Positions 50,806 to 59,128 of a DNA stretch of 64,000 nucleotides are shown in pieces. Below the pieces are notes generated by a model. The model searched no databases. It was not told the origin of the DNA and saw only the letters and a program-made list of their open reading frames with translations. The first letter of the stretch is position 1. Every line of letters begins with the position of its first letter. Origin of the DNA: Leucobacter chironomi DSM 19883 (GTDB lineage Bacteria > Actinomycetota > Actinomycetes > Actinomycetales > Microbacteriaceae). A program made the translations under genes and the position numbers. The stretch is from the NCBI RefSeq assembly GCF_000421845.1, contig NZ_ATXU01000004.1, positions 186,001 through 250,000 of the forward strand. The letters are read 5' to 3'.

Positions 50806-51723
50806 ATGACCGGCTCTGACAGGCGTGACGAGCTGCGCAGCGCGCTCGAGAGCAAGCGCGCGCAGCTCGAGGCGACGAATGCCAGGATCGAGGCGCGGGC
50901 CGGCCGCAACCTGTTCTTCGCGGTGCTCTCCGGCCTCGTGTTCGCGGGGGTCTTCCTCGCGAGTCTGCTGCTGGTGAAGCAGGTGTTTGTGCTGCTCGTC
51001 GCGGTGATCGTGGCGGTGGCTCTCGTGGAGCTGGCTGCGGCGTTCCGGGTCGCCGGTCGTCGGGTGCCGCGGATCGGCGTGGTGCTCGGCGGCCTCGTCG
51101 TGGTAGGCGGTGCCTACTTCTGGGGTGCCGAGGGCATGCTGCTCGGCCTGTTCGCCGGATCTGCCCTGCTCACCGTGTGGCGCCTGATCGAGGGGCTGGT
51201 GCCGGCGTGGGAGACACCGCGGCGCACGCTGGTGCGGGATGTCTTCTCGGGGCTCTTCACGCTGGTCTACGTCGGTTTCCTCGCCTCGTTCGCGGTGCTG
51301 CTCGTGGCGGCCGACGGGGGCGAGTGGTGGGTGTTCGCGCTCGTGCTCGTCGTCGTCTCGGTCGATGTCGGGGCGTATGCGGCGGGTGTCACGGTCGGCA
51401 AGCACAAGATGACGCCGCGGATCAGCCCGAACAAGACCTGGGAGGGTTTCGCCGGCGCCGCGATCGTGGCAGCCGCGGCGGGTGTCGGGGTGTCGGTGCT
51501 CGCACTGCAGCAGCCCTGGTGGGTGGGGATCATCCTCGGCGTCGTCGTGCTGCTCACGGCGACGATGGGCGACCTCACGGAATCGCTCATCAAACGCAAC
51601 CTGGGAGTGAAGGATATGAGCTCGTGGATTCCGGGGCACGGGGGCTTCCTCGACCGTCTCGACTCGCTGCTGCCGTCGGCCGTCGGGGTCTACGGCGTCG
51701 CACTGGCGCTGGGAGTGGTGTGA
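50806..51723 (+). CDS. cdsA: phosphatidate cytidylyltransferase (CDP-diacylglycerol synthase)
   Basis: A 305-residue membrane enzyme making CDP-diacylglycerol from phosphatidate and CTP. A basic, coiled N-terminus of about 35 residues is followed by about seven to eight membrane helices. The family signature near the C-terminus is SLIKRNLGVKDMSS followed by WIPGHGGFLDRLDSLL. The stop TGA at 51721-51723 shares its last base with the ATG of the next gene, so the two are coupled. Confidence 0.95.
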   Translation: MTGSDRRDELRSALESKRAQLEATNARIEARAGRNLFFAVLSGLVFAGVFLASLLLVKQVFVLLVAVIVAVALVELAAAFRVAGRRVPRIGVVLGGLVVVGGAYFWGAEGMLLGLFAGSALLTVWRLIEGLVPAWETPRRTLVRDVFSGLFTLVYVGFLASFAVLLVAADGGEWWVFALVLVVVSVDVGAYAAGVTVGKHKMTPRISPNKTWEGFAGAAIVAAAAGVGVSVLALQQPWWVGIILGVVVLLTATMGDLTESLIKRNLGVKDMSSWIPGHGGFLDRLDSLLPSAVGVYGVALALGVV

Positions 51724-52322
51724 TGACAGGGCCTTCACAGCCGTCCGCTCGCACGGTCCGCAAGAATGGTGCGGTGCACTCGTCGTTCCCCACCGCGTCC
51801 GGATCCCAGCTCGGCTACCAGCCCGAGCAGGTCGATGCCTTTCTCGACCGAGCCCGCGCGACCTACGAGGGCTCGGGCGAGGCGGCGATGACGGCCGAGG
51901 AGGTGCGCCGTACCGCCTTCGCCGTGAAGCGCGGCGGGTACGCCTCGCGCTACGTCGACGCCGCGATGGATCGTCTCGAGGAGGTCTTCTTCGAGCGTGA
52001 GCGGCGGGCCCGTGTGCGGGCGGACGGCGAGGAGGCCTGGTGGGATGAGACCCGTCAGCTGCTCTCCGAGGTGCGGGGGCGCATGCAGCGGCCTCGCGGC
52101 AAGCGTTTCCGCCGTCGCGGCCTCTTTGCGACCGGGTACCGGCGCTCGCAGGTCGATGCGTTTCTCGACAGGGTCTTCGACATGTTCGAGCGGCGCGAGC
52201 TCGGGTTGTCGCCGGCCGAGGTGCGGGATGTCGTCTTCCACTCGCAGTGGCGCGGCTACGATGAGGATCAGGTGGATGCCCTGCTCGATTCGGTGGTCGA
52301 GCTGATCCTCGCCACGCGGTGA
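51723..52322 (+). CDS. protein with two DivIVA-like modules
   Basis: A 199-residue protein. Two copies of a DivIVA-type N-terminal module are visible: LGYQPEQVDAFLDRARATYEG with GGYASRYVDAAMDRLEEVF in the first half, and TGYRRSQVDAFLDRVFDMFE with RGYDEDQVDALLDSVVELIL in the second. Each half contains the pattern twice: G-Y-x3-Q/Y-V-D-A-x-L/M-D. A basic linker (RPRGKRFRRRG) joins them. Coiled-coil tails of true DivIVA are absent. Its ATG overlaps the cdsA stop, so envelope synthesis and this protein are co-expressed. The role in polarity or cell shape is inferred. Confidence 0.8.
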   Translation: MTGPSQPSARTVRKNGAVHSSFPTASGSQLGYQPEQVDAFLDRARATYEGSGEAAMTAEEVRRTAFAVKRGGYASRYVDAAMDRLEEVFFERERRARVRADGEEAWWDETRQLLSEVRGRMQRPRGKRFRRRGLFATGYRRSQVDAFLDRVFDMFERRELGLSPAEVRDVVFHSQWRGYDEDQVDALLDSVVELILATR

Positions 52323-53355: not shown

Positions 53356-53378
53356 GAGCGCGCCCGCGCGCCGCGCTC
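53356..53378. terminator. hairpin between convergent genes
   Basis: GAGCGCG (53356-53362) pairs with CGCGCTC (53372-53378) in the 21-bp gap between the zinc-ribbon gene and rnhA, overlapping the rnhA stop. There is no T-run. Confidence 0.45.
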
Positions 53379-53904
53379 AGAAGAGCGTCGGGGGAGCGGG
53401 CGGTGCCGTCACGTCGACCTGCGGGGTGGGCGCCTCGGCGCCGGCGAGGCCGGGCCCGTGATCGGGTCTGGTGCCCGCCTGGAAGGCGAGTGCCACGGCG
53501 CGTGCGCGCTGGTCAGCGGCCTCGTTGAGCGGGTGACCGGCGTGGCCCTTCACCCACTCGAAGCGCACGTCACGACCGGCGAGGGCGGCATCGAGCTGTT
53601 CGAGCAGTTCTCGGTTGAGCACCGGCTTGCCGTCCGCCTTGCGCCAGCCGCGACGCTTCCAGCCGGCCATCCATTGCGTCAGCGAGTTGATGACGTACTG
53701 ACTGTCGCAGAGCACGCGCAGCGGCTCGTCGGCGCGCTCCGCCGTGGCGTGCAGCAGGTCGAGCACGGCCATGAGCTCGCCCTGGTTGTTGGTGGCGCGC
53801 GGCCATCCGCCGGCGCGCCACTGCTCGCCGTCGATCACCCACGCCCAGCCGGCGGGGCCGGGGTTGCCGAGGGCGGAGCCGTCGGCCGCAGCGGTGAGCG
53901 TCAT
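53377..53904 (-). CDS. rnhA: ribonuclease HI
   Basis: A 175-residue RNase H type 1, which cuts RNA in RNA-DNA hybrids. The catalytic acidic residues are D8 (AADGSALGN), E43 (NNQGELMAV), D67 (CDSQYVI) and D131 (NEAADQRA), with H124 in HAGHPLN. The C-terminal 35 residues are a Pro-rich extension ending PPAPPTLF. The ATG at 53904 overlaps the stop of the coiled-coil gene (ATGA), so it is translated with that scaffold protein. This operon pairing is unusual for rnhA. Confidence 0.94.
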   Translation of the reverse strand: MTLTAAADGSALGNPGPAGWAWVIDGEQWRAGGWPRATNNQGELMAVLDLLHATAERADEPLRVLCDSQYVINSLTQWMAGWKRRGWRKADGKPVLNRELLEQLDAALAGRDVRFEWVKGHAGHPLNEAADQRARAVALAFQAGTRPDHGPGLAGAEAPTPQVDVTAPPAPPTLF

Positions 53905-56828
53905 GCCTGCTCGCCCTCGGCCGTCTGCGCGGGCGCATCGTCGCCTGCGTCCGTGAGCGGTTGCTCGACGACGCGCCCTGCGACGCTGCTCATCTTCTGA
54001 GCGTTGGTGAGCACTTCGCCGAGGCTCTCGAAGTAGCGGGCCACCGCGCCGCGCTCGACCTTCAGCTGGACCATGCGGTCCTCGGCCGCGGCGAGCACCT
54101 TCGTCGCACGGTCTTCGGCGGCGGCGAAGGTGTTCTGCGCGCGCTGCTCGGCCTCGACCACGATCTCGGCAGCGTGGCGCTCCGCCTCTGCGCGGGTGTT
54201 GCGCGCGTCCTGGGCGGCTTCGGAGGTGATGCGCTGGTACTCGGCCCGTCCCGTCTCGAGCTGCTCGCGGAGCGCGGACAGCTCCGCGCGGGTGGCCTCG
54301 ATCTCCCGGCGCGACGCCTCTGCGGCCTCCTGCTGCCGAGCCGCGAGATCCTGCTCGAGGGCTTCGCGCTGCTGCGTCGAGGAAGTCGTGAACTCGAGGG
54401 TGTCGGCGTCGATCTGCTCGCGGAGGGCGCGCACGGCGTCCTCGGTCTCGCTGCGCAGCTGCGCGAGGCGCGCCTCCTCGGTGGCGCGGTGCTCGGCGAG
54501 CTCGGCGACAGTGTCGGTGCGCAGCAGATCGGTCTCCTCGGTGACCTCGGCCCGCTTCGCGGCGACCTCGCGTTCGATCGCGGCGGCCTGGGCCTCGCGC
54601 TCCCGGCGCAGGTCGTCCTCGTGCTGGGCACGGGCTGCCGCCATGGCTCGATCGTGCTCTTCGCGTTCGCGCGCGATGTCGGCCGCGAGCTTCGCGCGCT
54701 CGCGATCCACCTGCAGTTCAAGTTCTTCGCGCTGCAGCCCGAGGCTTTCGGCGGCCTCTTCGCGCTGGATCCGGAGTCGCTCCTCGGCTGCGGTGGCCTC
54801 GTCGGCGATGCGCTGCTCGTGCTCGCGCAACTGCGACGCGAGCCGCTCGGCGTGCACGGTGGCCTCGTCCGACAGCTGCGCCCGGTGCTCCTCGTGCTGT
54901 CGGGCGAGCTGCTGCTCCTGATGCGCGCGCTCGTCGGCGAGCTCGGCTTCGTGGGCCTGACGCTCGGCGTCGATGCGCCCGCGGTGGTCCTCCCACTCTG
55001 CGATCAACCGGTCCTGATGGCCGGCGAGCTCGCTGCCGATGCGGTTCTCGTGGGCTTCCCGCTCACGGGCGATGCGGATCTCGTGCGCCTCGATCTCGGT
55101 CGCGAGAAGATTCTGCTGCGAGGTGCGCTGCGCGGCGAGCTCGCGCTCCTGCAGCTCCTGCTCGTCAGCCAGACGGCCCGCGTGGGCCTCCGACTCCCGG
55201 GCGATGCGGCTCTCGTGCTCTTCGCGCTCGCGAGCGATGGCGGCGTCGTGCTCCTCGCGCTCCTGCGCGATGCGTGCCTCGTGTTCTTCGCGCTCCTGCG
55301 CGATGCGGCTCGCGTGGGCCTCCGATTCGCGGGCGATGCGGCTCTCGTGCTCCTCCCGCTCCCCGGCGAGCGCACGGTCGTGAGTCTCGCGCTCCTCGGC
55401 GATGCCCTGCTCGTGCGTCTCGCGCTCCCGCGCCAGACGGGAGACGTGGGCCGACAGCTCGGCGGACAGGCGCTCCTCCTGGGCGTCGCGCTCGTTCTTG
55501 AGCCGTGCCTCGTGCGAGACGATCTCGGCGCGCATCGACTCGTCGTGGGCGTCGCGCTCCTCGCGAACGGCCTGCTCGTGGGTCTCGCGCTCGGCGGCGA
55601 TCCGCGCCTCGTGGGCTTCGAGATCCTGGCGCAGCTGCTGCTCCTGCCGCTCGCTCGCCGCGGCCAGTTCGGCTTCGAGGCGCTGCTGCGCCTCGAAGCG
55701 GTCGCGGGCGGCCAGTTCGTCGGCGCGCGACCGCTCCCGAGCTCCCTGTTCGGCGAGCGTGGTGAGTTCGGCCTGCTGCGCTTCGAGGCCGCGCGCGATG
55801 TCGGCGTCGTGCTCCGCGCGCTCCTGCGCGATGCGCTCGGCGTGCGTCTGCTGCTCCGAGGCGATGCGGCGCTCGTGCGCCTCGCGTTCGGCGGCGAGGG
55901 CTTCGTCGTGCTCCGCGCGCTCCTGCGCGATACGGCCCCGCAGCGTCTCCATCTCGGTGCTCAGGGCGCGTCGCTCGGCGTCGAGGCGGCCTTCCAGTTC
56001 GCGCTGGCGCTCGGTGTAGCGCTCCTCGAGTTCGGCTTCCTCGCGCTGGCGCTTGGCCTCGAACTCGGCGCGAGCGCGCTCGGCCTCCTGCACGAGCCTG
56101 GCGCGTTCGAGCTCGGCTTCGCGCTCGCTCTCGGCCCGCTGCCTGCTGAAGTTCTCCGCGTGCCGCTCGGTCTCGGCGCGCAGCTCGTTCGCGGCGGTGC
56201 GGGCGTCGGCGGTCACGCGCTCGGCCTCTGCGCGGGCGGCGGCGAGCTCTGCCTGGGCGTCGCGGTGGGCGGTCTCGCGCTCCGTCTCGGCTTCGCGGGC
56301 GGCGGAGCTGAGGGTGAGTTCGGCGTCGCGGCGGGCCTCGGCCACGAGGCGCTCGCGATCGGCGTTCGCGGCGGCGGTCTGCTCGGCGAGGTCGGTGCGC
56401 GCACCGGTGATGATGATCTCAGCCTGTTCGGAGGCCGAGGAGAGCAGTTCGTCGGCCCGGCTCTGCGCTTGGGTGAGCACGCGCTTGGCTTCCTCCTCCG
56501 AGGAGCGGCGCAGCTTCTCGGCGTCGAGGTCGGCCTGGGCCATCAGGCGCTGCGCGTGATCCTCGGCGATCTTGAGGCTCTTTTCAACGCGCAGCCCGAG
56601 CCCGGAGTAGCCGGTGGCGCCGAGTTCGGCGACCTGATCCTGGAGCTCGGCGATGAGCTGTCGCTGCTCCTGGCCCACATGCGTGGCCTGCTGGTGGGCG
56701 GACTGCAAGGATTCGAGGTGCGACTGCAGCGTGGTGATGTGGCCGGTGAGTGAGCCGATGCGCTCGTCCACTTCTTCGCGGTTGTAGCCGCGGAAGGCAG
56801 GGGAGAACTGCTGAGCTGATTCGGACAC
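53901..56828 (-). CDS. giant DivIVA-like coiled-coil scaffold with 11-residue repeats
   Basis: A 975-residue, almost fully helical protein. The N-terminus FSPAFRGYNREEVDERIGSL is a DivIVA-like membrane-targeting/head module. Residues about 300-750 form a hendecad coiled coil: a His or Gln recurs every 11 residues, with H at 21 of 25 positions from 406 to 670 (consensus HEaRIAqEREe). The same register holds at 307, 318, 329, 340 and at 725 and 736. The C-terminus reverts to ordinary coiled coil and ends in an acidic tail. It recalls Streptomyces Scy/FilP cytoskeletal coiled coils, which mix heptads and hendecads. GTG start 56828 is preceded by GGAGG. rnhA follows with an ATGA overlap. Confidence 0.85.
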   Translation of the reverse strand: MSESAQQFSPAFRGYNREEVDERIGSLTGHITTLQSHLESLQSAHQQATHVGQEQRQLIAELQDQVAELGATGYSGLGLRVEKSLKIAEDHAQRLMAQADLDAEKLRRSSEEEAKRVLTQAQSRADELLSSASEQAEIIITGARTDLAEQTAAANADRERLVAEARRDAELTLSSAAREAETERETAHRDAQAELAAARAEAERVTADARTAANELRAETERHAENFSRQRAESEREAELERARLVQEAERARAEFEAKRQREEAELEERYTERQRELEGRLDAERRALSTEMETLRGRIAQERAEHDEALAAEREAHERRIASEQQTHAERIAQERAEHDADIARGLEAQQAELTTLAEQGARERSRADELAARDRFEAQQRLEAELAAASERQEQQLRQDLEAHEARIAAERETHEQAVREERDAHDESMRAEIVSHEARLKNERDAQEERLSAELSAHVSRLARERETHEQGIAEERETHDRALAGEREEHESRIARESEAHASRIAQEREEHEARIAQEREEHDAAIAREREEHESRIARESEAHAGRLADEQELQERELAAQRTSQQNLLATEIEAHEIRIAREREAHENRIGSELAGHQDRLIAEWEDHRGRIDAERQAHEAELADERAHQEQQLARQHEEHRAQLSDEATVHAERLASQLREHEQRIADEATAAEERLRIQREEAAESLGLQREELELQVDRERAKLAADIAREREEHDRAMAAARAQHEDDLRREREAQAAAIEREVAAKRAEVTEETDLLRTDTVAELAEHRATEEARLAQLRSETEDAVRALREQIDADTLEFTTSSTQQREALEQDLAARQQEAAEASRREIEATRAELSALREQLETGRAEYQRITSEAAQDARNTRAEAERHAAEIVVEAEQRAQNTFAAAEDRATKVLAAAEDRMVQLKVERGAVARYFESLGEVLTNAQKMSSVAGRVVEQPLTDAGDDAPAQTAEGEQA
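54588..55910 (-). repeat. 33-bp-periodic coding repeat (hendecad region)
   Basis: DNA encoding residues 307-747 of the coiled-coil protein follows a 33-bp period. The most uniform part is 55152-55415 (residues 472-559), where successive units such as EHESRIARESE, AHASRIAQERE and EHEARIAQERE are nearly identical. Confidence 0.85.
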
Positions 56829-57199
56829 GTGGCCTCCGGGAATCGTACGAGATCGTGCGGGCCAGACGGGGCGGCTGGGCTGGCACGGAGAATGAGGTCC
56901 AGATTATCGCACTCGCCCTCGGGGTGAATCGGGATCCGGGAAAAATCACCCGCGGGCGGTCGTGCCGGAGGCCGGCACCGAGGGCGACGTATTCGGAGCG
57001 TGAGCGAGTCCGTCACGCACTGCGCAGAGTTGCGACGCTCGGGCGGGAGCGGAGACACCGGAACTTGGGGGTTCCCCGGGCCGCACCCATGCCGCTTCGA
57101 GGAAGCTCCGGTAGCGTTGTGGTGAAGAGTCGCGCTCGACCCGTCCGCCGCCGGCTGCGACGGGCGGCCGAGCGCCGTCATCCGTGGATAGGAGCCCCC
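56829..57199. other. divergent intergenic region
   Basis: A 371-bp gap between the divergent coiled-coil and membrane-protein genes. I see a plus-strand TAGCGT box (57112-57117) followed closely by GTG 57122, an alternative start for the next gene. A 5-bp hairpin lies near 57060-57075. No RNA gene, repeat or convincing small gene is visible. Confidence 0.5.
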
Positions 57200-59128
57200 G
57201 TGCGATATGTGCTCGCGATCGCAGCGCTGGTGATCTCCGGTGTTCTGCTACTGCTGGGCATCGGCCAGCGCACTTTCCTCGCAGGCCCCTCCGAGATCAG
57301 TTTTCCGGTCGAGACCAACTCCGAGGCCGGTTACGCGCTGGTCGACGGTTCCGAACTCGCGAAGGTGCCGGGTCAGGCCAACGTCGTGGTGCGGGGCGGG
57401 CAGGCGTTCGTCGCCACCGGTCAGACGCGCGACGTCGAGGGCTGGCTCGAACCGTACCTGCACGCCGAACTCACCGTCGACAAGAAGCAGCAGCGGCTGC
57501 TGAGCGCGCTCATCGCGCCGGCCGTGCTCGAAGCGCCGGAGGCCGGGGGAGAGGCCGAGGAGCCCGAGCCCGTCGATCCCCAAGGCAGTGACCTGTGGCT
57601 CGAAGAGCGCTCGGTCGACGACGACCGGCGCGGCGCCGATGCCAGCACGCTGCGGGTGCCAGTCGCGCTCGACGCCGGACAGTCGGTGCTGATCGCCTCG
57701 AACGGAGAGGACCCCGTGCCAGCGGACGTCTCGCTCGTGTGGGCCCAGGATCGCAACACGCCCTGGGTCGGTCCGCTGCTCGTGGGCGGTGCGCTGTTCG
57801 CGCTCCTCGGCGGCGTGCTCTACCTGCTCGCCGTCGACCACAACCGTCGCGGGCTCGGCCCGCGTCGCGGCCGTCGCGGGCCGCTGCAGGGCATTCGCAA
57901 CGCCTTCGGCAAGTCCTCTCGCGGCACTGCGGCGCCCGTCGACGGTCGCGATGGCGGCGATGGCGGATCCGCTCCCGCTGATGCGACCCGCCCCGAGGGC
58001 GGCACCGCGCCGATGCGCTCCGAGCGTCGTGCGCGCGTGCGCCGGGGCTTCGCGATTCCGGCCCTCGGGCTCGTCGCGGTGGTCGGGCTCACGGGCTGCT
58101 CGCCCAGCTACTGGCCGCAGCTCGGCTCGGACACGAAGCAGGAGGAGCCGGTCTCTCCCACGCCGTCGTCCGCGGCGCCCGTGCCCGTCACCGACGGGCA
58201 GCTCAGCCGGATCGTGGAGCGCGTGTCTGCGGTGGCGAACGAAGCCGATGACGCCCTCAGCGTCGACCTGCTCCGCGACCGCTTCACCGGGGACGCGCTC
58301 ACCCAGCGCACGGCGAACTACACGATCAGGGCCGGCATGCCCGATTACAGCGTGGTGCCCCCGCGCATCACCGATGAGGAGCTCGACTACGAGCTCGTGC
58401 AGAGCACGGAGTCGTGGCCCCGCACGCTGTTCGTGACGGTCGCCTCCTCGCGCGACAGCGGGAAGGCCGACGACGCCGAGAGCGGTGACAAGGAGACGCC
58501 CGCGGCATCGCCCTCGCTCGCCCTCGTGCTCACGCAGGAGACACCGCAGCAGAACTACCAGGTCTCGCGCGTCATCGCGCTGCGCGGCGGGATCTCGATG
58601 CCGCAGGCGGCCCCGGCCGAGGAGGGCACCGCGCTGCTCGCGAACGACATCGAGTCGCTCGTGCTGCCTCCCGGAGAGGTGGGTGCGCAGTTCGCGGCGG
58701 TGCTGCAGGGCGGCCCGGACGTGCCCGAGGCCGAGGCCTTCGACATCGCCGAGGACACTCTGCTGCAGAACTACGGCAAGACCCTCGCGGAGCAGGCGCA
58801 GGCGCAGTCGGATGCGAAGGGCCAGACGATGGCCTACTCGGTCGCGGCACGGCAGGGGGACGAAGACCCGGTCGCGCTGTCGACCGGCGTCGGCGGCGCG
58901 CTCGTGGCGACGACCGTGATCGAGGAGCAGATCGTCGACGCGGCCGGCGGCCGCTACAAGCCGCAGGCGAACGGGGCGGTCACCGCCCTGTCCGGAATGT
59001 CGGGCGAGCAGGAGCGGCTCGTGCAGGAGGTCGCCCACCAGCTGCTCTTCTTCGTGCCCAGCAAGACCGACGGAAGCAAGATCCAGCTGCTCGGCGTGAC
59101 GAGCGAACTCGTAGGAGTGAGGAACTAG
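57200..59128 (+). CDS. bitopic membrane protein with internal lipobox-like segment
   Basis: A 642-residue protein I do not recognise as a named family. Part 1 has an N-terminal helix (YVLAIAALVISGVLLLLGIG), an extracytoplasmic domain with many Val/Glu-rich strands, and a second helix (LLVGGALFALLGGVLYLLAVD). A basic linker (GLGPRRGRRGPLQG) leads to Part 2, which opens like a lipoprotein: FAIPALGLVAVVGLTGCSPS, then a Pro-rich linker and a soluble domain. The GTG at 57200 has AGGAG 5 nt upstream and was chosen over GTG 57122. It looks like a membrane protein and a lipoprotein fused into one chain. The next gene, a thioredoxin-TPR protein, starts 2 nt after the stop. Confidence 0.7.
   Translation: MRYVLAIAALVISGVLLLLGIGQRTFLAGPSEISFPVETNSEAGYALVDGSELAKVPGQANVVVRGGQAFVATGQTRDVEGWLEPYLHAELTVDKKQQRLLSALIAPAVLEAPEAGGEAEEPEPVDPQGSDLWLEERSVDDDRRGADASTLRVPVALDAGQSVLIASNGEDPVPADVSLVWAQDRNTPWVGPLLVGGALFALLGGVLYLLAVDHNRRGLGPRRGRRGPLQGIRNAFGKSSRGTAAPVDGRDGGDGGSAPADATRPEGGTAPMRSERRARVRRGFAIPALGLVAVVGLTGCSPSYWPQLGSDTKQEEPVSPTPSSAAPVPVTDGQLSRIVERVSAVANEADDALSVDLLRDRFTGDALTQRTANYTIRAGMPDYSVVPPRITDEELDYELVQSTESWPRTLFVTVASSRDSGKADDAESGDKETPAASPSLALVLTQETPQQNYQVSRVIALRGGISMPQAAPAEEGTALLANDIESLVLPPGEVGAQFAAVLQGGPDVPEAEAFDIAEDTLLQNYGKTLAEQAQAQSDAKGQTMAYSVAARQGDEDPVALSTGVGGALVATTVIEEQIVDAAGGRYKPQANGAVTALSGMSGEQERLVQEVAHQLLFFVPSKTDGSKIQLLGVTSELVGVRN

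Follow-up and report, generated by a model that had tools for sequence, protein, structure and literature searches.

We describe a protein of Leucobacter chironomi DSM 19883 in which histidine (His) recurs every 11 residues along a long coiled-coil rod, forming a ladder whose register is closely kept among relatives. The protein is encoded in a 64,000-nucleotide stretch (positions 186,001 to 250,000 of contig NZ_ATXU01000004.1, hereafter the window) of a 2.96-Mb genome, by a coding sequence at 53901..56828 on the reverse strand, as are all parts of the gene given below. Taken from the open reading frame (ORF) list and its translation, this sequence has a GTG start and specifies a 975-residue FilP/Scy-type rod made of hendecads, or 11-residue units. 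Comparison with orthologues shows that the register is conserved, with constraint on His, on the Glu four residues before it and on the Ile or Leu four residues after it, and that rod length changes almost only in coiled-coil-compatible steps. That the register is kept so closely in relatives suggests that the His do real structural work.

The protein contains 38 His, 28 of which fall in one modulo-11 class. Every eleventh position from 406 to 670 is His or Gln (25/25), with Gln at 450, 560, 571 and 637 and His at the other 21, so that the main ladder (residues 406-680, 54789..55613, by register count and alignment) forms 25 consecutive rungs, exactly as an initial annotation of the window had described in the reading frame 56828-53901, which it had placed correctly. 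A first His block (residues 307-350, with His at 307, 318, 329 and 340; 55779..55910, by register count and alignment) and two extra His at 725 and 736 (units 725-746; 54591..54656, by register count) belong to the same class, again as claimed. The phase is thus kept, as the annotation had it, and its term unbroken applies to 406-670: the 40 register positions from 307 to 736 comprise 27 His, 6 Gln and 7 other residues (Gly, Ala or Leu at 362-384 and 681-714), the ladder being interrupted at about 351-395 and 681-714.

Autocorrelation of His positions is highest at lag 11 (21 pairs, z 16.9 over 300 shuffles), followed by lags 22, 55, 33 and 44; the peak at 7 that would have spoken against the annotated hendecads was not seen, and His positions are flat modulo 7. 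Large hydrophobic residues follow the same period, with z 13.1 at lag 11 between residues 86 and 925 (peaks too at 22, 33 and 44; z 1.4 at lag 7) and 11.8 at lag 11 versus 3.4 at lag 7 over the whole protein. A heptad coil was rejected because both autocorrelations peak at 11 and not at 7. The hendecad nature of the roughly 430-residue stretch marked initially was borne out and its extent was not, since the hydrophobic register runs from about 80 to 942 (the rod, 54003..56591), well past that stretch, giving about 860 residues of hendecad helix. The ladder unit reads H-E/D-x-R-I/L-A-x-E-R-x-x, and 98% of the 968 ladder units have Ile, Leu, Val, Met or an aromatic residue at position 5, which led us to set aside a single stable alpha-helix without a partner, as suggested by the many Glu and Arg residues. 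Of the 22 units in the tail of this rod, 8 have Leu at position 1.

Constraint was assessed on 18 orthologues that are 59-88% identical to the window protein. With gaps excluded, 342 of the 364 aligned His of 406-670 are kept, the replacements being 19 Gln, 1 Ile, 1 Asn and 1 Leu, and H307, H318 and H329 are invariant in all 18 aligned proteins. The rung is the best-conserved position of the unit (identity 0.88), followed by Glu-8, four residues before the next His (0.86); the Ile/Leu place stays hydrophobic at an identity of 0.64, and the rest range from 0.37 to 0.65. When the middle rung between two His 22 residues apart is tabulated over 38 orthologues (677 rungs), it is His in 568 cases, Gln in 84, Leu in 11, Ala in 7 and another residue in 7, Gln thus making up 84/109 of the non-His rungs. 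Glu at -4 accompanies 97% of the 568 His rungs versus 75% of the 84 Gln rungs (551/568 vs 63/84; Fisher p 9e-11, uncorrected for ancestry). One orthologue, L008, aligns with no indel, its units are 0.48 identical at third codon positions and 25 of 27 ladder His are nonetheless kept, a retention for which P = 1.8e-6 at the 0.49 residue identity of the units serves as a rough yardstick. Third-codon identity of orthologous units (0.48 for L008, 0.41 for L010) is close to that between different units within the window protein (0.50), which implies that within-gene copying is not what keeps the His alike; recent homogenisation of the repeats as sole cause of the ladder was rejected because the His are kept despite this divergence.

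Changes in rod length obey the same register. Against the 18 orthologues, 22 of 24 rod indels are multiples of 11 (±11, 22 or 33). The distance between two conserved anchors, the GLG of a loop at the start of the rod and the YFES of a motif at its end, can be taken free of alignment; it spans 713-1065 residues in 46 ladder proteins and equals 9 modulo 11 in 41 of them. Both anchors were found in 6 of 16 ladder-free family members, with a distance of 2 modulo 11 in four and 9 in two. On this evidence, drift or recent copying does not account for the kept rungs together with the register-keeping length steps.

The rod gene was found in 36/36 other genomes of the genus searched. Among 40 distinct Leucobacter rows, 38 are complete (852-1194 residues), and all 38 have 11 or 22 as their best His lag and 7-28 pairs of His at lag 11, exceeding in each case the maximum of 200 shuffles; His out of register in homologues, which would have counted against the initial reading, was thus not observed within the ladder clade. 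The ladder also occurs in 8 genomes of 6 neighbouring genera (4-29 lag-11 pairs), being weak in both genomes of genus g27 (4 and 9). Such pairs number 0-3 in 12 other Microbacteriaceae homologues, 0-1 in four homologues from Pseudoclavibacter and Zimmermannella and 0-1 in nine from other families; of the 21 other Microbacteriaceae homologues read, 20 do not exceed 3 and one bears a short block. Across the genomes compared, the ladder is lineage-specific.

The search of Microbacteriaceae genomes proposed with the initial annotation accordingly placed the ladder in Leucobacter and neighbouring genera and not family-wide. A head query matched 123/150 Microbacteriaceae genomes and 71/85 genera, some matches being weak and possibly due to paralogues, and a ladder query matched 29/249 genomes of the family at E 0.001, in 13/85 genera. 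Four loci of genera g76 and g75 retrieved by the ladder query have no lag-11 His pair; the query also brought in two more g27 genomes, with 4 and 7 such pairs. Genera g49 and g87 gave weak matches that stand outside the homologue counts. The short block belongs to L163, of genus g69, a 1070-residue frame with 7 lag-11 pairs, where about six His lie 11 apart, with Leu, Ile or Val four residues after, amid Thr/Ala hendecads. It is probably an independent small ladder, and a second, short origin of a His block is likely in g69. Among 396 genomes of the phylum, the ladder search returned a strong match only in the genome of origin, and five weak ones; four of these five loci have some frame with 3-5 lag-11 His pairs, the frames of L125 and L126 not being Glu-rich and that of L128 being short. 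Another of the five, L124, in an 8.9-Mb genome, carries a few His hendecads in a linker helix with the His-to-Leu spacing of 4 seen in the ladder, in a protein that we take to be sensor-kinase-like. A phage origin was rejected, a megablast of the rod gene against phage records having given no match; plasmids were not searched.

In both of two midpoint-rooted trees, a branch supported at 100/100 has all 46 ladder rows (at least 4 pairs) on the same side. The first tree used the head and C-terminus of 53 rows, the other 18 of 71, all ladder-free, having been dropped because our script did not find the C-terminal motif; the second used the head of all 71 rows, with a bootstrap that had not settled. 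L163 was found later and is in neither.

The rod is framed by conserved ends. A DivIVA-like head (residues 1-69, 56622..56828, from Pfam and NCBIfam profiles and alignment) carries RGYNREEVD at 13-21, in which RGY and EVD are invariant across the 18 aligned proteins, and is joined to the rod by a loop with a Y-S-G-L-G motif (residues 70-79, 56592..56621, from alignments and an AlphaFold2 model), whose GLG is invariant in alignments A1 and A2. At the other end, the conserved C-terminal motif (residues 915-945, 53994..54086, AEDRMVQLKVERGAVARYFESLGEVLTNAQK, including YFESL, from alignment) has 26 of 31 residues invariant in the 18 proteins. The AlphaFold2 model, built from 18 aligned proteins, is nearly all helix, with helices at 17-69 and 80-942, a non-helical loop at 70-79 and short breaks at 242-248, 377-381, 539-549 and 711-717. 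A fold search of this model against the PDB gave no match and is uninformative for the low-confidence rod.

The protein alone scores 19.2 bits against Pfam DivIVA, for a cut-off of 28, and the genome search, which includes frame neighbours, scores 35.1 bits, over the cut-off; NCBIfam Wag31 matches at 1.1e-8, with 35 bits versus a cut-off of 260. In the available portion of the study by Martinez-Goikoetxea and Lupas (PMC9858780), DivIVA-like proteins are marked by RGYDxxEVD preceding a coiled-coil helix, a description that RGYNREEVD at 13-21 and the helix at 17-69 fit, with N here for the D of RGYD. The protein shares its head superfamily with DivIVA/Wag31 and differs in falling well below the Wag31 cut-off, and its own genome has another, 225-residue DivIVA-like ORF at G000:C2. 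That genome also encodes a 374-residue ORF with a FilP-like head (L166, G000:C2:256900-258900; 1.0e-22 against the A2 profile) and an NFSGLG loop, with 14 His, 2 lag-11 His pairs and no ladder; by these comparisons the ladder protein forms a set with the 374-residue FilP-like and 225-residue DivIVA-like ORFs and is the long one among them.

The A2 profile, built from nine heads of Microbacteriaceae and other families, matches 105/148 genomes of the class. In one of them, G374 (7.1 Mb), it finds a 322-residue FilP-like ORF (9e-24) and a 1289-residue Scy-like ORF (8.5e-7) about 4 kb apart, which we name by inference from size, motif and adjacency. With the FilP/Scy group our protein has in common an N-terminal DivIVA-like motif, a long hendecad rod and an actinobacterial host; it differs in that a single 11-residue register extends along most of the rod and bears His and Glu, whereas neither G374 ORF has a His pair at lag 11. 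We therefore file the ladder protein, from its head and rod, as a FilP/Scy-type rod of the DivIVA superfamily, and the periodicity and the register kept in homologues support the coiled coil of Scy/FilP kind that had been annotated. An excerpt of PMC3718342 describes the Scy rod as a 51-residue repeat, and lag 51 does not discriminate Scy here, with z 3.7 in the ladder protein versus 3.8 in the Scy-like ORF of G374, whose lag 11 reaches 9.1. Scy proper starts right before RGYD without an N-terminal helix; here 12 residues precede RGY, with only a 3-residue helix there at a predicted local distance difference test score (pLDDT) below 50. Scy and some FilP genes adjoin crotonyl-CoA carboxylase/reductase or methylmalonyl-CoA epimerase, as far as the consulted part of PMC9858780 goes; our flank searches of the loci covered rnhA and the divergent ORF only. 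Since the discussion section of that article, as excerpted, describes Scy as almost wholly hendecads, a rod made almost purely of hendecads has precedent; what is new is the ladder of His and Glu and how closely its register is kept.

Among described coiled coils with a His ladder, the nearest that we found are, from the accessible part of PMC8616854, the histidine zippers (Hartmann and Lupas; CASP14 T1083, T1084 and T1087; 5LOS), in which regularly repeated His are taken to be situated in the interface. They share with the Leucobacter rod a regular His repeat in a coiled coil and, in that text, differ as hairpins or antiparallel dimers with interdigitating His, in place of an 11-residue spacing in a 975-residue rod with a DivIVA-like head. 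No relative of solved structure was found at E 0.001, and phmmer of the ladder against the PDB to E = 10 returned 22 sequences, of which 21 are apolipoprotein E (best E 0.0045) and the other is a ribosome-binding factor, and no histidine zipper. Our literature searches found no title on the Leucobacter rod or on His in hendecads, from which we do not claim absence in print. In a separate line, L161 of genus g76 contains many VETTKAALAEE-like units and 2 His; such Thr/Ala arrays of other Microbacteriaceae share the head type, the C-terminus and regular 11-residue arrays with the ladder proteins, and differ, in our reading of the register, in having expanded with Thr, four residues before Leu, where Leucobacter has His.

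Simple geometry locates the rungs near the hydrophobic face. The hydrophobic moment of the ladder lies within about 30 degrees of Ile, and the conserved face, at -19 degrees, falls between His (-33) and Ile (0). Position 1 of the hendecad-like segments in 16 other family members (72/113 segments used) is Ala in 25%, Glu in 21% and Thr in 13%. The position of the conserved face, together with the Leu at position 1 in the tail and the Ala, Glu and Thr in relatives, would place His in or at the edge of the core. We consider it somewhat probable that the protein is a cytoskeletal rod of FilP/Scy type whose central hendecads expanded in the Leucobacter lineage and in which His, with Glu, forms on the core face beside Ile a repeated, register-fixing polar layer of a straight coil. 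In such an arrangement two or more helices would pack along the His and Ile face, with His in a core or core-edge place and hydrogen-bonded to the Glu one turn earlier or to the partner chain. One polar layer per 11 residues, or about 16 Å, could keep a long, near-repetitive rod straight, permit only 11-residue register shifts between chains and tune lateral assembly, and the rod would lose much of its surplus negative charge if the His were protonated. A cellular location as a pole or envelope scaffold beside DivIVA is suggested by family alone.

Several observations weigh against this interpretation. The AlphaFold2 monomer is of low confidence (pLDDT 68, predicted template-modelling score 0.24), with no partner chain visible. 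The moment and Crick-type calculations are simple geometry, and the facing angle varies with the C-beta offset and the oligomer that are assumed. The hydrophobic stripe is thin, with one large residue in 11, so that another oligomer, or a helix binding another partner, is possible. Pairwise alignment of repeats can favour His-to-His matches, and the association with Glu at -4 carries no correction for shared ancestry, Ala rungs keeping that Glu too (86% of 7) and Leu rungs in 64% of 11. Among the indels, the remaining 2 of 24 form a -4/+4 pair in L011, which falls within an interruption of the ladder near 379-388, and 5 of 46 proteins break the modulo-11 rule (L019, L033 and L036 at 5; L037 and L059 at 1), although these lengths fit one or two added heptads (or changes of -4 and +3).

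It is possible, if rather doubtful, that the ladder is instead a zipper through which protons or Zn/Ni control assembly or release of the scaffold. Modelled roughly as a parallel dimer, the rod has its His C-beta atoms 6.7-8.5 Å apart with the axis at Ile or between His and Ile (4.8-13.4 Å over six facings), and in a simple pKa model the net charge of the ladder goes from -11.2 to -5.2 per 100 residues between pH 7.5 and 6.0, whereas two homologues that lack the ladder go only from -7.5 to -6.3 and from -8.3 to -7.2; the ladder's larger change makes pH sensitivity plausible. However, cytoplasmic pH is normally near neutral, rungs are about 16 Å apart, and the sole common replacement, Gln, neither titrates nor binds metal well. 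Because replacements are mostly Gln, it seems unlikely that each rung is an obligatory site for metal or protons, and a polar or hydrogen-bonding layer is favoured; that orthologues accept Gln argues against a role limited to binding protons or metal. Parallels from elsewhere cut both ways: FilP assembly is pH dependent in the part of PMC6599971 available, although the FilP-like ORF in G374 lacks a ladder, and histidine zippers have been proposed as metal scavengers in the excerpt of PMC8616854. More speculatively, and with little confidence on our part, the rod could be an intracellular cytoskeletal one, a histidine-gated hendecad filament, in which proton or metal binding over tens of conserved core His-Glu layers would co-operatively determine how stiff a polar scaffold is and, in steps of 11 residues, its register; such a filament would probably have become fixed a single time, in an ancestor of Leucobacter and neighbouring genera.

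We find it unlikely that the His/Glu stripe is a docking face that repeatedly binds another protein, for example ParA or a wall-synthesis partner, and lies away from the dimer core. In most units the two well-kept residues, His and Glu, do share a side of the helix, and ParA binds the non-canonical coiled coil of Scy according to an excerpt of PMC3718342; nevertheless, tail units of this very rod often have Leu at position 1, as a core place would, and a lone partner would not ordinarily have tens of equivalent sites whose number varies. A functionless by-product of 33-base repeat expansion and recent copying is very improbable: some units are near copies (494/538, 94% DNA identity), unit number varies widely and one g69 genome has its short His block inside a longer His-free array, but orthologous units as diverged at third codon positions as separate units of one gene have kept their His, while His, Glu-8 and the hydrophobic position 5 are held as other positions change, and length steps keep the register over many species.

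A repeated polar layer in the core remains the reading that we prefer, and it bears on hendecad coiled coils in general, which are far less understood than heptads. The 46 homologous rods, with 4-29 lag-11 His pairs, form a natural series that retains His at one register position amid variable neighbours, and since these rods grow and shrink by register-keeping steps, the role of a polar residue in a hendecad core, be it in straightness, register, oligomer or pH response, is directly testable, in a family that participates in polar growth in Streptomyces.

Downstream, the stop of the rod gene overlaps by 4 bases (53901-53904) the start of rnhA, which encodes RNase H (53377..53904, reverse strand; RNase_H 1.2e-33) and lies outside the ladder. 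This neighbour is present in the fetched flank of 31/40 Leucobacter loci, 2/8 neighbouring-genus loci and 0/25 other homologue loci, several flanks being short. On the forward strand, the divergent ORF 56750-59128 has a membrane segment that reads through in one frame into a lipoprotein-like signal (GLTGCS) and a weak match to the SCO2278-family lipoprotein; two genes, or a single fused protein, may be encoded here. A 930-residue open frame opposite the rod gene (53961-56753, forward) is probably a by-product of codon bias in high-GC repeats. Further along, the ORFs upstream of a PolyDIV-type gene are presumably pyrH, frr and cdsA, which they resemble. The position of the PolyDIV-type gene (51177-52322, forward; protein matching TIGR03543 at 1e-52) downstream of them agrees with the published link between PolyDIV and UMP kinase.

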